From: Nitrosopumilus sp. | GTDB lineage: Archaea; Thermoproteota; Nitrososphaeria; Nitrososphaerales; Nitrosopumilaceae | Reading direction: 5' to 3' | DNA: 64,000 bases | Assembly (NCBI RefSeq): GCF_025698945.1 | Contig: NZ_JAILWM010000004.1 | Coordinates: forward strand, 124,001 to 188,000 | In this document: positions 58,311 to 63,578 of the stretch, piece after piece | How the letters are laid out: the number at the start of each line of letters is the position of its first letter | Numbering within the stretch: the first letter of the stretch is position 1 | Position numbers and translations under genes: made by a program | Notes under the pieces: model-generated | The model's input: the letters and a program-made list of their open reading frames with translations, nothing else | Database searches by the model: none | Told to the model about the DNA's origin: nothing

Positions 58311-58472
58311 ATGTCAGTAGAAGTAACATGTGGAAAGTGTGGAGAGAAGATTACAAACATGAAGATGTTAAAATCTCTAAAAGATGTAATGAATCCTTAT
58401 AGTGGAAAATGTCCATCTTGTGGACAGAAACTTTCAACGTCTGAGTTTTCCCTTGATGTACAAGAAAATTGA
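58311..58472 (+). CDS. 53-residue zinc-ribbon protein
   Basis: The ORF starts MSVEVTCGKCGEKITN and has two CxxC knuckles (CGKC and CPSC) 24 residues apart, a typical zinc ribbon. GATCAT occurs just before the ATG (58301-58306), the same motif as in the array upstream of the ribonucleotide reductase. Role unknown; small ribbons often serve in transcription or translation. Confidence 0.75.
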   Translation: MSVEVTCGKCGEKITNMKMLKSLKDVMNPYSGKCPSCGQKLSTSEFSLDVQEN

Positions 58473-58515
58473 TCTTAAACTTTGAAATTTAATTAAGAAT
58501 TTGAAAATCAAGTTT

Positions 58516-58561
58516 CTGATCTAAAAATCTTTGTTTTGAAATAACAAAACTGATCTAAAAA
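58516..58561. promoter_or_regulatory. Direct repeat flanking a hairpin upstream of the NrdD-like gene
   Basis: CTGATCTAAAAA occurs at 58516-58527 and 58550-58561. Between them GTTTTG (58533-58538) pairs with CAAAAC (58545-58550). It lies 57-102 bp before ATG 58618. The layout suggests an operator for that gene. Confidence 0.4.
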
Positions 58562-58617
58562 GACTCTGAAATGTTCTAGTCATAAGTCTTATTTACTCCT
58601 TATTTTGTAAATGATTC

Positions 58618-60711
58618 ATGGAATTAGCCGAAGAGATCTCTGAACCAAAGAGAAGTGGCATCCTGCAGTCTACATCGAAACGTGTTAGAATGATCTTTTC
58701 TGTCATGGCAAGTCCTAATAGAATCGATATCCTTCGAATCCTAAATTCCAAGGGACCATTGACCTATTCAGAGCTAAAATCATTGGCAGGATTCAAGTCC
58801 AAAAAAGAGAGTGGTAAATTTGCATACCACTTGAGAAAATTATTAAGACAATCCCTTGTTGCACTTAACAAATCTGAAAGACGATACACAATTACAAATT
58901 TGGGAAAATTAGTTTTGAGTTTAGCTAGACAAATTGAAGAAAGATCAATTATTGAAAGTGGAAAGATGTATGTTAGAACATCACATGAATCAATTGAAGA
59001 ATTTAATTCTCATAAAATTATTCAATCACTAGTTCGTGAAGGCAGTTTGCCACTAGAACTAGCACAAAAAATTACCGAAGAAGTTGAAAATAGAATTTAC
59101 AAATATCAAACTACCTATCTTACAGGCTCACTGATTAGAGAAATGGTTAATTCTGTTCTTCTTGAGCATGGTCATGAGGAATATAGGAACAAACTTGCAC
59201 GCCTAGGTCTGCCTGTTTATGACGTTCAAGAAATGATCTCAAACTTGGATAATGTAGATAATGGTGCTGAAGGTCTCTTGTTTAACACTGGACAGAGAGT
59301 CTTCGCTGAGCACTTACTTACAAACATACTTCCAAAAGATGTGGCAGATTCCCATCTTTCTGGTGATTTGCATATTACTAATCCTGGTATTTGGTCTATG
59401 ATTCCTGATACAATATTTGTTAACATTAAAGAATTGATTGAAGATGGAATTGATCTTGGTGGAAAATATCTTGATGTCTCAAGAATTTCTTCATCAAAAC
59501 AACTTGATGAGATTACAACTGCATTATCCATTGCAATATCTCTTCTATCAAAGGAAGCATCACAAGAAATTGTGCTTGATGGATTGGTTGCATTGTTTAC
59601 AAAACATTCAAAATCACTCCCAGACCTAGAACAAAAATTAACTGATGCATTTTCAACTGCATCTACAACTTCAAAATATAACAAAACAAGTACAGTTGTA
59701 TCAATTAGACTACAATTAGGTACTGATACTAAAATAATTAATTCAATTATTAATGCATACAAAAATTACGTAAAGATCACTCCAATACCAAAAATTGGTT
59801 TGATAATTGATCATGACAAAGGAAAGATAACTGATGTTTCTCAATCAGCTGCTGAAATTATTTCATTAGGTGGTAAGGTAATGTTTGCTAAAGGACAAAC
59901 ATCTAGCTTAGGTGTTACAAATGGATCAACAAAGACCACTAGTCCGCTTTCAATAACATTGCAATCTGTTTCAATTAACCTTCCTAGACTTGCATTTGAA
60001 TCAAACAAAGATGAAACTTACTTTAGAGCAAGACTTGCATTATTAATGAAGCCAGCACTATCTTCTATGGCATTAAGAAAGAAAGAGATCTCAGATCTTA
60101 CAAGAAGAGGACTAAATCCAATTCTTGCAAAGAACACACAATACATGCAAAGAAGTTCTGTATCACTTGTTGTAAATTTGGTTGGACTCAAAGAAGCAGT
60201 CTTTAACATATTAGGATTCCAAGATAACAAAGAAGGACGAGATATTCTACACAAAGTCATTGAGACTGCTGTTGATGTTGGTGCCAAAAAAGGCAAAGAA
60301 TTGGGCGATCCTGTGGCTATTTGTATGACTGAAACAGAAGGCTCTGCTCGTTTTGCTTTACTTGATGGGGAAAAATATGGTAAAAATTCCTCTCTGAATT
60401 CAATGGATACGGACTATTATTCACAAGGTGTCGTGATTAATTCATCTGAGATTTCCGATTTTACTGCTAAGAGTGAACCTATTTCTGAATGTAACAAACT
60501 ATCAAAGTTACTCAATGGTGGCTTACTTGTAACATTAGATATTGACAAGAACGCAAAGCCTGAAGAAATCCAAAAATCCATTGAAAAGGCATCAGAACTT
60601 ACATCTTCTTTCAAGCCTGTTAAGAAAATTTCAATATGTGGTGAATGTGGATTCAAGGAAGAGCTATTTGAAGACAAGTGTCCAAAGTGCAAGTCACCAT
60701 ATGTTGTCTGA
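58618..60711 (+). CDS. wHTH + ATP-cone + NrdD-like protein lacking catalytic residues, probable regulator
   Basis: A 697-residue fusion. Residues 20-100 are an ArsR-like winged helix (SPNRIDILRILNSKGPLTY). An ATP-cone-like domain follows (about 118-210). The remainder resembles anaerobic ribonucleotide reductase NrdD, with SVSINLPRLAFE near 450 and a C-terminal zinc site CGECGF..CPKCKS (about 675-693). The chain stops right after the zinc site, so the glycyl-radical motif is missing, and the finger-loop Cys region has no Cys. It cannot be a normal reductase. Placed just before the class II enzyme, it looks like a nucleotide-sensing repressor analogous to NrdR. Confidence 0.8.
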   Translation: MELAEEISEPKRSGILQSTSKRVRMIFSVMASPNRIDILRILNSKGPLTYSELKSLAGFKSKKESGKFAYHLRKLLRQSLVALNKSERRYTITNLGKLVLSLARQIEERSIIESGKMYVRTSHESIEEFNSHKIIQSLVREGSLPLELAQKITEEVENRIYKYQTTYLTGSLIREMVNSVLLEHGHEEYRNKLARLGLPVYDVQEMISNLDNVDNGAEGLLFNTGQRVFAEHLLTNILPKDVADSHLSGDLHITNPGIWSMIPDTIFVNIKELIEDGIDLGGKYLDVSRISSSKQLDEITTALSIAISLLSKEASQEIVLDGLVALFTKHSKSLPDLEQKLTDAFSTASTTSKYNKTSTVVSIRLQLGTDTKIINSIINAYKNYVKITPIPKIGLIIDHDKGKITDVSQSAAEIISLGGKVMFAKGQTSSLGVTNGSTKTTSPLSITLQSVSINLPRLAFESNKDETYFRARLALLMKPALSSMALRKKEISDLTRRGLNPILAKNTQYMQRSSVSLVVNLVGLKEAVFNILGFQDNKEGRDILHKVIETAVDVGAKKGKELGDPVAICMTETEGSARFALLDGEKYGKNSSLNSMDTDYYSQGVVINSSEISDFTAKSEPISECNKLSKLLNGGLLVTLDIDKNAKPEEIQKSIEKASELTSSFKPVKKISICGECGFKEELFEDKCPKCKSPYVV

Positions 60712-60736: not shown

Positions 60737-60782
60737 GATCATTTCTTAAAATATTTTGATCATTATACGTTCCGGCGATCAT
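60737..60782. promoter_or_regulatory. Three GATCAT repeats at about 20-bp spacing
   Basis: GATCAT at 60737-60742, 60758-60763 and 60777-60782 are spaced 21 and 19 bp, two helical turns, so a protein could bind them on one face. A TATA-like TTAAAATATT (60746-60755) lies between the first two. The array sits in the 215-bp gap between the NrdD-like gene and the class II reductase. Confidence 0.55.
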
Positions 60783-60926
60783 CGTCGTTTACCATGAATG
60801 TTATGCCAGTATGAAGTTCATAGTAGTGGTGTTAAAAAAATTGACTCTTTAATGGGCCAAGATCAAAACTTTTCGAGCACACAAGTTATATCCACATCTT
60901 TCTTACCCATTGCGGGGAGATTATAA
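60783..60926 (+). promoter_or_regulatory. Leader and proximal promoter of the class II reductase gene
   Basis: The stretch has a possible stem ATGAA/TTCAT (about 60794-60822), a second TATA-like TTATAT (60886-60891) and a GGGGAGA ribosome site (60914-60920) before the TTG start. If transcription starts at the upstream box, the leader is about 150 bases, long for this lineage. I see no known riboswitch. Confidence 0.4.
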
Positions 60927-63578
60927 TTGGATAATTCACAAATAGAAAATACGATCAGTGAGATCCGTAAGCGCAGTGGCGCAGTAACGGCTTTCAATAA
61001 AAATAAAATTTCAAATGCCATCTATAGGGCATTGGCTGCCACCTCTAAAGCCGACCGTGGTTTAGCCGATCAACTAGCAGGAAAAGTTGTTGATAAATTA
61101 GTAGAACAAGGATTTACTAGTTCTCGAACACCTACAGTTGAAGACATTCAAGATATTGTAGAGTCTACATTAATTGATAGTGGAAATAGCGATATTGCCA
61201 AAGCCTATATCGTTTACAGACATGAGAGAAGAAAATTAAGAGACGAAAAGAAGAAGGTCTTAAATCTAAAAAATCTAGATCCAGTTTCTAAGAAATTTGA
61301 TTTGAATTGTCTTAGGGTTTTAGCATCAAGATATCTTTTCAGAAATGGCAAAAATGAAATCATTGAATCACCTACTCAGATGTTTGAAAGAGTTGCAATC
61401 CTAGTTGGAATTGGTGATATTCTTTATGACGCACAACTATTTGACAAATCTGGACATACCAAACAAGATGTAGAAGAAGCAAAATCTTATCTTGAGAAAT
61501 TAGATGCCTTTGATTATAAATTCAAAGTAGGCTCTTATTTCTTTAACAAGTGGCATTTTAGAGCACTAATCAATCACTATGTTACACTTGCAAACAAAGG
61601 TCAGATGAAGGTAAGTTTCAAAGATCTATTGACATTACTTGCAGCCAAGAAACTAGATAGTTATGAAGATAAAATAACTGAGTACCTTGAATTGATGACT
61701 GCACAAGACTTTCTACCAAATTCACCAACAATGATGAATGCTGGAGGAAGATTGGGACAACTATCAGCATGCTTTGTCTTAGGAATGGAAGATGGTATGG
61801 AGCAAATAATGAAATCCACATCTGATGCAGCATTGATCTTCAAATCTGGCGGTGGTGTAGGAATAAACTACTCTGATTTGCGTGAAGAAGGTGATATTGT
61901 TGCCTCAACTTCTGGTGTTGCCTCAGGTCCGGTATCTTTTATGAACATCATCAATACCGTAACTGAAGTTGTAAAACAAGGAGGAAAAAGACGTGGTGCT
62001 AACATGGGAATCATTGAAGCATGGCATCCTGATGTTGAGAAATTCATTACCAATAAAACAGAACCAGGAATCTTAGAGAACTTTAATGTAAGTGTGGGAA
62101 TCTGGGAAGACTTTTGGCATGCACTAGTAAACACTAGTGATGGAAACTATGTTTTGCGTAGTCCACGTGATAAAAAACCAGTAAAAGAAATCAATGCACA
62201 CCAACTCATTGATCTAATTGCACTATCTGCATGGAAGAGTGCAGAACCTGGCTTGATCTTCTTTGATCAAATTAACAAATACAATGTGTTTGCCAAAGCT
62301 AGACAAGCACCATTAAGAGCTACAAATCCATGTGGTGAGCAAAGTCTCTATCCATACGAATCTTGTAATCTTGGTTCTATCAATTTGGTCAATCTAGTAA
62401 AACGCCAAGCAGATGGAAGTTATGAATTTGATTGGCAAAGATATGAAGAAACAATCAGAAAGACAACAAGATTCCTTGATAACATCATTGATGTAAACAA
62501 CTATCCAGTACCAGAGATTGATGTTGCATCAAAAGAATCTAGAAGAATTGGATTAGGTGTTATGGGAGTTGCAGATCTTCTATACAAATTAAGGATTCCA
62601 TATAACTCCAAAGAAGGTTATGAACTACAATCAAAACTCTCCGAAGCATTAACCTACTATTCAATGGAAGAAAGTGTAGCACTTGCAAAATCTAGAGGTG
62701 AGTTCCCACTTTGTTCAAAGACTGAATATCCTGAAGGAAAGATTCCAGTTGCAGGATACTATGAGAAACCAAAAGAAGCTCACTCCTATGAATGGGATGC
62801 ACTAATTGATAAAATCCAAAAGTATGGAATAAGAAATGTCTTGACAACTACAGTTGCTCCAACAGGAACACTATCCATGATAGCAGATTGTTCAAATGGA
62901 ATGGAACCTGCATTTGCTCTTGTATTTGAGAAGCGAGTAACAGTTGGAAGATTCTTCTATACCAACAAGATTGTCGAAGAAGTCCTAAAAGAAGAAGGTC
63001 TTTACAATGATGAAATTCTTGCAAAGATTGCAGACAACTACGGTTCATTGAAAGGAATTCCTGAAATTCCTCAATGGATGCAAGATGTCTTTGTAACTGC
63101 AATGGATATTCATTGGGCTGATCATCTCATGGCTCAAGGTGTATGGCAAGACTGGATTGGAAATGCAATTGCAAAAACAATCAACATGCCATATGATGTA
63201 ACAGCAGAAGATGTAAAATCTGCATATCTGTTAGCACATGAAATAGGACTAAAAGGAATTACCGTTTATCGTGACGGTTCAAGACACAAACAAGTACTTC
63301 ACATGACTAGTGAAAATGCAGAGAAGACCTTTGATGTAACTCCAAGTGAATATATCACTGAATACATCACTAAGAAAATTACAAACCCTTACGTCAAATC
63401 TCAAGTCAATGCAGCACTTGCAATTAAAGTTCATGACGAAGAAATCAAAATGGAACCTCAGAAGATAGAAGATATTCCCGAAGATCGTCTATGTCCAACA
63501 TGCAAAAACAGCCTTGTCTTTGTAGAAGGATGCAGTATCTGTATTGAATGCGGATACAGTGGTTGTACTTCTGGATAA
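60927..63578 (+). CDS. nrdJ: Adenosylcobalamin-dependent (class II) ribonucleotide reductase
   Basis: An 883-residue class II reductase that makes deoxynucleotides with a B12 radical. An N-terminal ATP-cone (about 14-105, VTAFNKNKISNAIYRAL) gives activity control. Active-site Cys are C282 (LSACF), C469 (NPCGEQ) and C480 (ESCNLGSINL). A C-terminal Cys-rich tail (CPTCKNS..CSICIECGYSGC) reduces the active site or binds zinc. TTG start with a GGGGAGA site. It is the only ribonucleotide reductase with intact catalytic residues in the window. Confidence 0.95.
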   Translation: MDNSQIENTISEIRKRSGAVTAFNKNKISNAIYRALAATSKADRGLADQLAGKVVDKLVEQGFTSSRTPTVEDIQDIVESTLIDSGNSDIAKAYIVYRHERRKLRDEKKKVLNLKNLDPVSKKFDLNCLRVLASRYLFRNGKNEIIESPTQMFERVAILVGIGDILYDAQLFDKSGHTKQDVEEAKSYLEKLDAFDYKFKVGSYFFNKWHFRALINHYVTLANKGQMKVSFKDLLTLLAAKKLDSYEDKITEYLELMTAQDFLPNSPTMMNAGGRLGQLSACFVLGMEDGMEQIMKSTSDAALIFKSGGGVGINYSDLREEGDIVASTSGVASGPVSFMNIINTVTEVVKQGGKRRGANMGIIEAWHPDVEKFITNKTEPGILENFNVSVGIWEDFWHALVNTSDGNYVLRSPRDKKPVKEINAHQLIDLIALSAWKSAEPGLIFFDQINKYNVFAKARQAPLRATNPCGEQSLYPYESCNLGSINLVNLVKRQADGSYEFDWQRYEETIRKTTRFLDNIIDVNNYPVPEIDVASKESRRIGLGVMGVADLLYKLRIPYNSKEGYELQSKLSEALTYYSMEESVALAKSRGEFPLCSKTEYPEGKIPVAGYYEKPKEAHSYEWDALIDKIQKYGIRNVLTTTVAPTGTLSMIADCSNGMEPAFALVFEKRVTVGRFFYTNKIVEEVLKEEGLYNDEILAKIADNYGSLKGIPEIPQWMQDVFVTAMDIHWADHLMAQGVWQDWIGNAIAKTINMPYDVTAEDVKSAYLLAHEIGLKGITVYRDGSRHKQVLHMTSENAEKTFDVTPSEYITEYITKKITNPYVKSQVNAALAIKVHDEEIKMEPQKIEDIPEDRLCPTCKNSLVFVEGCSICIECGYSGCTSG

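Follow-up and report, generated by a model that had tools for sequence, protein, structure and literature searches.

The 64,000-nucleotide stretch of Nitrosopumilus DNA analysed here (hereafter the window) contains, at positions 58618–60711 on the forward strand, a gene whose product combines a winged helix, an ATP-cone and a catalytically dead NrdD. NrdD is the class III form of ribonucleotide reductase, the enzyme that makes the building blocks of DNA. Taken together, the data make it probable that this protein controls the transcription of ribonucleotide reductase genes and that it evolved once, early in the phylum, from an NrdD that gained a winged helix and lost catalysis. Most likely, the regulator is a nucleotide sensor that takes the place of NrdR, the repressor of reductase genes in bacteria. 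The evidence concerning the dead enzyme and its phylogeny is firm, and so is the linkage to reductase genes. DNA binding is likely in view of the modelled fold.

Domain organization and structure model

The open reading frame starts with ATG and codes for 697 amino acids. From the letters alone, the protein had been read as an ArsR-like winged helix and an ATP-cone joined to an NrdD-like barrel. This layout was borne out by Pfam, by an AlphaFold2 model and by Foldseek. First, residues 25–100 (58690–58917, +) form an ArsR-type winged helix-turn-helix, with the Pfam families DUF7347 and HTH_20 matching residues 26–100 above their curated cut-offs; structural matches to the ArsR family and the conservation of this part agree with the assignment. 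The recognition helix region reads KKESGKFAYHLRKL. Second, an ATP-cone occupies residues 117–192 (58966–59193, +). PF03477 scored 34.7 bits at residues 117–189, against a cut-off of 25.8, and the structure matched the cones of NrdR. Third, residues 213–660 (59254–60597, +) form the NrdD-like barrel. The NRDD family (PF13597) matched residues 445–693 in two stretches, above its curated cut-off and with a whole-protein E-value of 7.7e-29. The profile alignment stopped at position 529 of 562, before the glycyl-radical end. The same families were recovered throughout the class: among 28 members, DUF7347 matched 28, NRDD 27, ATP-cone 26 and HTH_20 25. The window's protein is 97% identical to its counterpart in a Nitrosopumilus MAG.

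A full-length AlphaFold2 model was computed from 28 aligned relatives (pLDDT 82.3, pTM 0.74). In Foldseek comparisons, its cone and barrel matched class III reductases, the best match being 9d3x with an E-value of 4.5e-22; the structures matched by the full model were the class III enzymes of S. thermophilus, P. copri, T. maritima and phage T4. The N-terminal 205 residues were also modelled separately (pLDDT 83.9). The best Foldseek hits of this shorter model were NrdR proteins, matched via the cone. It also matched the ArsR-type repressors CzrA, CadC, SmtB and NolR with target TM-scores of about 0.7, and the match of CzrA to the N-terminal half reached 0.75–0.77. The hits of this short model have weak E-values (5e-4 to 2e-2), so that the fold assignment relies on Foldseek and Pfam together. 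On both grounds, the N-terminal domain is of a DNA-binding type, as had been claimed. Its first 100 residues thus resemble the ArsR/SmtB repressors in their winged-helix fold; unlike these repressors, the protein carries a fused, reductase-derived sensor part of 600 residues.

Many Nitrosopumilus relatives (L085, L086, L087, L094, L112 and others) have an acidic N-terminal extension of 20–50 residues, rich in Asp and Leu, such as EEDLELDLDVDADLDDD. This extension is missing from the window's protein.

Loss of the catalytic residues

Catalytic residues were compared in an alignment of 37 family members with 14 intact archaeal NrdDs. In the latter, all the columns checked, that is the strand-1 cysteine, the finger-loop cysteine pair, the loop glycine and the zinc cysteines, were present in 14 of 14 sequences. 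In the window's protein, the strand-1 catalytic cysteine (LGPYC in true NrdDs) is replaced by Thr265 (59410–59412, +) and the finger-loop cysteine pair (MCCR) by Gly432-Val433 (59911–59916, +), so that the finger-loop region is devoid of cysteine, as noticed in the sequence-only reading. The C-terminal zinc site is made of cysteines 674, 677, 688 and 691 (60637–60690, +), which 25 of 28 family members have retained. Since the last of these cysteines is residue 691 of 697, the protein terminates directly past the zinc site; the glycyl loop (RVVGYLRP in true NrdDs) is absent from it. The claimed ending without a glycyl-radical loop was thereby verified.

The same loss extends to the whole family. 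None of the 37 members keeps the strand-1 cysteine, as compared to all 14 intact NrdDs, and none has a complete catalytic set. A cysteine at the second finger position was found in three members (L235, L236 and L246), and a glycine at the loop position in two (L244 and L246). Within the window's class, none of the 13 members tabulated has the strand-1 cysteine, the finger cysteines or the glycyl loop. A tail beyond the zinc site is visible in outgroup lineages and gone in the class. In the outgroup tails the glycine is mostly replaced, VVGYLRP having become TENMFTP, VSAKHLP or ASALLQP. From the aligned residues, the outgroup relics of the finger cysteine or of the glycine read as a stepwise erosion from one origin.

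The family is thus like class III NrdD in its cone and barrel fold, its C-terminal zinc site and its INLPR motif; it differs by the loss of the strand-1 cysteine, finger-loop cysteines and glycyl loop, and by the added winged helix. The features shared with NrdD, including the invariant Asn of INLPR, could be taken to mean that the protein is still a divergent class III reductase that performs radical chemistry with other residues. One outgroup member, L246 (genome G574, family f77), indeed retains a finger-loop cysteine together with the loop glycine; its strand-1 cysteine is gone, and it is possibly, on the basis of these residues, the relic nearest to an active enzyme. The uniform losses in the 13 class members strongly contradict residual activity, and so do genome-wide searches. 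In the window's own genome, profile searches detected no Gly_radical domain and no second NRDD match beyond the window's protein. A separate glycyl-radical peptide was ruled out, since none was found in the genome. The genome gave no separately encoded radical site. For the activase NrdG, searched for with the NrdG2 model, the score remained below the cut-off in the own genome. NrdG2 exceeded the cut-off in just 3 of 101 class genomes, and one of these hits, directly behind a true NrdD in genome G047, serves as positive control. Retained catalysis therefore appears very improbable.

Some lineages have gone further. At L139 (genome G136), L199 and other loci of families f30 and f35, the zinc site is lost too and the barrel is shortened, with the winged helix and the cone intact. 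At L274 (genome G088), the stretch coding for the zinc-site end of the protein is triplicated in a short tandem array at the 3′ end of the regulator gene (ggccggcaggcttgagggcaggtgccccc... repeated).

Origin, distribution and conservation

In a quick maximum-likelihood tree, a single branch with an SH-aLRT value of 99 split the 37 winged-helix members from the 14 intact NrdDs, given a short search and winged-helix columns that exist in one group only. The tree fits a single origin of the winged-helix family. Together with the fold and the domain matches, it gives good support to the reductase ancestry that had been proposed. The protein was found in 280 of 300 genomes of the window's class, and in 207 of the 213 good ones. 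Elsewhere in the phylum, a search with a family profile recovered long homologues from about 20 more families.

Conservation is unevenly distributed along the protein. Within the class, mean pairwise identity is 66% for the winged helix and 58% for the cone, and falls to 21–33% in the barrel parts and 27% in the zinc tail. The invariant columns of the winged helix are R35, L42, Y50, L53-K54, G58-F59, K62, E64-G66, F68-L72 and L75, and the recognition-helix stretch ESGKFAYHL is near-invariant. Judged by these alignments, such a pattern would be expected of a protein whose lasting function is DNA contact, with a barrel that drifts while serving as scaffold or sensor. A diverged barrel, parts of which were lost in several lineages, might also point to a decaying NrdD pseudogene. 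Decay is refuted by a frame that is intact in nearly all of the 280 genomes and by a winged helix and cone that are strongly conserved class-wide, which leaves this explanation with a negligible probability.

Two features bear on ligand binding. The Asn of the INLPR motif is invariant, and a pocket for a ligand may thus have survived. In the cone, according to our alignment, Glu127 and Lys133 are retained and the Lys-Arg pair of other cones is replaced by Thr-Ser. In other ATP-cones, this pair touches the nucleotide phosphates. Its loss makes nucleotide binding at this place uncertain, and the ligand may differ.

Linkage to reductase genes

As the sequence-only reading had stated, the protein is encoded directly upstream of a class II reductase. 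The next gene (60927–63578, +) is nrdJ, assigned by Pfam and NCBIfam as a B12-dependent ribonucleotide reductase with its own ATP-cone. Where enough flanking sequence was available, a reductase gene was observed directly downstream on the same strand at 122 of 130 regulator loci, mostly from Nitrosopumilaceae. The identity of this neighbour varies between families. PRK06406-like NrdJs with a cone adjoin the regulator in families f1, f2, f3, f6 and f11, PRK08665-like NrdJs without a cone in f4, f8 and one f7 case, and long PRK07562-like NrdJs in f14 and another f7 case. In f18, the neighbouring NrdJ is convergent with the regulator. No reductase gene was adjacent in f16, f19, f20 or genome G136, which speaks against the proposed role. 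Among the loci sampled outside the class, eight (in f45, f55 and f75) have a true nrdD directly downstream of the regulator, and in f36 the regulator lies upstream of an NrdJ. Neither chance nor common descent of the two genes as a pair readily accounts, by itself, for this recurrent pairing of the regulator with unrelated reductases.

Such pairing could also mean that control is exerted on the protein itself. As a regulatory subunit bound to the adjacent reductase (NrdJ or NrdD), the dead NrdD would then determine how active that enzyme is or in which oligomeric state it occurs, and the winged helix would serve for protein contacts only. The common reductase fold and the adjacency to reductases of several types agree with such a partnership, and a partner could supply an ATP-cone to those neighbouring NrdJs that have none. 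The partners, however, are very different from one another (30–45% identity, class II or III), the invariant part of the protein is the winged helix and not the barrel, and this winged helix has the fold of ArsR repressors with a recognition helix. We consider control by direct protein contact to be unlikely.

Other genes also recur at these loci. The genes pyrB and pyrI, named by sequence motifs, are frequent neighbours of the regulator within and outside the class. In other classes of the phylum, both motif genes adjoin it at loci such as L228, L230, L236, L245 and L247. Directly upstream of the window's regulator, a 53-amino-acid protein with two CxxC pairs (MSVEVTCGKCGEKIT...CPSCGQ) is encoded at 58311–58472 (+), and many relatives carry similar sequence ahead of their regulator genes.

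The regulator might accordingly have a broader scope, acting as a DNA-binding regulator of nucleotide metabolism, including pyrimidine synthesis, with the reductase as one of several targets. In favour of this, pyrB/pyrI adjoin the gene in several families, some of them without an adjacent reductase. The constant neighbour in the window's lineage is nevertheless the reductase, and a non-exhaustive search found no shared site at other genes. Such a broader role appears to us rather improbable, and reductase genes remain the preferred target.

Promoter elements

Two regions were considered as possible sites of control, one upstream of the regulator and one upstream of nrdJ. The region preceding the regulator (58473–58617, +) is associated with GATC motifs at 58471, 58518 and 58552, which are part of a cluster conserved in relatives. 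In 47 non-redundant loci, the 150 bp upstream of the regulator contained 163 GATC as compared to 16.5 expected; as the species are related, such locus counts are not independent events. The steps between motifs are 10–11 and 19–20 bp. Upstream of nrdJ, GATC motifs at 60737, 60758 and 60777 form a helically spaced array (60737–60780, +) with steps of 21 and 19 bp. This array is conserved in many Nitrosopumilaceae, where spacings of 19–21 and 39–40 dominate (52 non-redundant loci), and its strict pattern occurs once in the genome. At the same loci, GATC density is 23 per kb upstream of the regulator and 13 per kb upstream of nrdJ, the background being 3.6 per kb. The Asp-Leu codons of the acidic extensions of relatives were rejected as the source of this excess, because the enrichment persists when counting from the first possible start codon. 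In the window itself, GATC clusters are unexceptional, seven places reaching 4 per 200 bp, and the case therefore relies on conservation in relatives.

A 13-bp palindrome, TATGAAGTTCATA (60810–60822, +), starts 117 bp before the nrdJ start. It is exact in 28 of the 52 non-redundant loci and present with at most one mismatch in 34, at 106–136 bp before nrdJ apart from one case at 471 bp. In the 1.75 Mb genome it is single-copy. The palindrome was rejected as a shared operator, since it was found neither in front of the regulator nor in archaea other than Nitrosopumilaceae. For the region preceding nrdJ, a riboswitch or another RNA of known kind was likewise discarded, as Rfam gave a chance-level match only.

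Both the GATC arrays and the palindrome are absent from families f2 and f3, the palindrome also from genera g5 and g8. The recognition helix is near-invariant in the class, yet the arrays and the TATGAANTTCATA palindrome are found only in Nitrosopumilaceae; they may therefore be the sites of another factor. Overall, these nucleotide patterns show that GATC arrays mark the promoters of both the regulator and nrdJ in Nitrosopumilaceae, with the regulator as a candidate binding protein only.

Comparison with NrdR and other enzyme-derived regulators

The model of NrdR (TIGR00244) had no match over the cut-off in 200 class genomes and none in the window's own genome, whereas it exceeded the cut-off in 9 of 14 control genomes. 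The own genome encodes just two ATP-cones, one in the regulator and one in NrdJ. NrdR is the bacterial reductase repressor and is made of a Zn-ribbon and an ATP-cone (PMC9110341, PMC12176259). The NrdR equivalents of Glu127 and Lys133, as placed by our alignment, matter for nucleotide binding, and one Lys contacts both nucleotides (PMC12176259).

Like NrdR, the archaeal protein joins an ATP-cone to a predicted DNA-binding domain, shows linkage to reductase genes whatever their class and probably does the same job. In contrast to NrdR, its candidate DNA-binding domain is an ArsR-type winged helix and not a Zn-ribbon, a whole NrdD fold is attached, its cone has other residues in place of the Lys-Arg pair and the NrdR model does not match. 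The parallel with NrdR drawn from the sequence alone therefore holds in part. The cone, the domain of DNA-binding type and the tie to reductases stand, the latter strengthened by linkage across families and unrelated reductase types and by the lack of NrdR in the class. The likeness in zinc binding is superficial, because the zinc-ribbon of NrdR is N-terminal and binds DNA, whereas the site found here is the ordinary C-terminal site of NrdD.

MocR/PdxR proteins are enzyme-derived regulators that combine a winged helix with an aminotransferase fold. They resemble the present protein in that an enzyme fold, recruited as a sensor, is joined to a DNA-binding domain. Fold and pathway are different, and in the present case the enzyme fold belongs to the target enzyme's own superfamily. 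No description of such a protein was found in the literature searched, which excluded subscription journals and arCOG tables.

Proposed function

We propose that the NrdD fold would act as a dimeric scaffold setting two winged helices on the DNA beside the reductase gene. Binding of ATP or dNTPs, by the ATP-cone and perhaps also by the former active or specificity site, would change the oligomeric state. High dATP might then strengthen, or relieve, DNA binding, so that reductase expression would be lowered. The job would be that of NrdR in bacteria. In this scheme we infer DNA binding, autoregulation, the nature of the ligand and the direction of control.

A further-reaching version is more tentative. 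Perhaps the dead-reductase factor controls reductase genes in a large part of the phylum, with the former active or specificity site, and not the cone alone, reading dNTPs, and was kept beside the reductase gene while class III and several class II enzymes replaced one another there.

Overall, the results suggest that a dead enzyme was turned into a switch for live reductases. They provide a concrete candidate for the control of dNTP supply in archaea that lack NrdR. This candidate occurs in almost every genome sampled from the window's class, that of the ammonia-oxidising archaea and their relatives, and in many related lineages. If true, this would be a clean case in which an enzyme came to regulate the functional class it belongs to, and in which intermediates bearing remnants of the lost catalytic site can still be seen.
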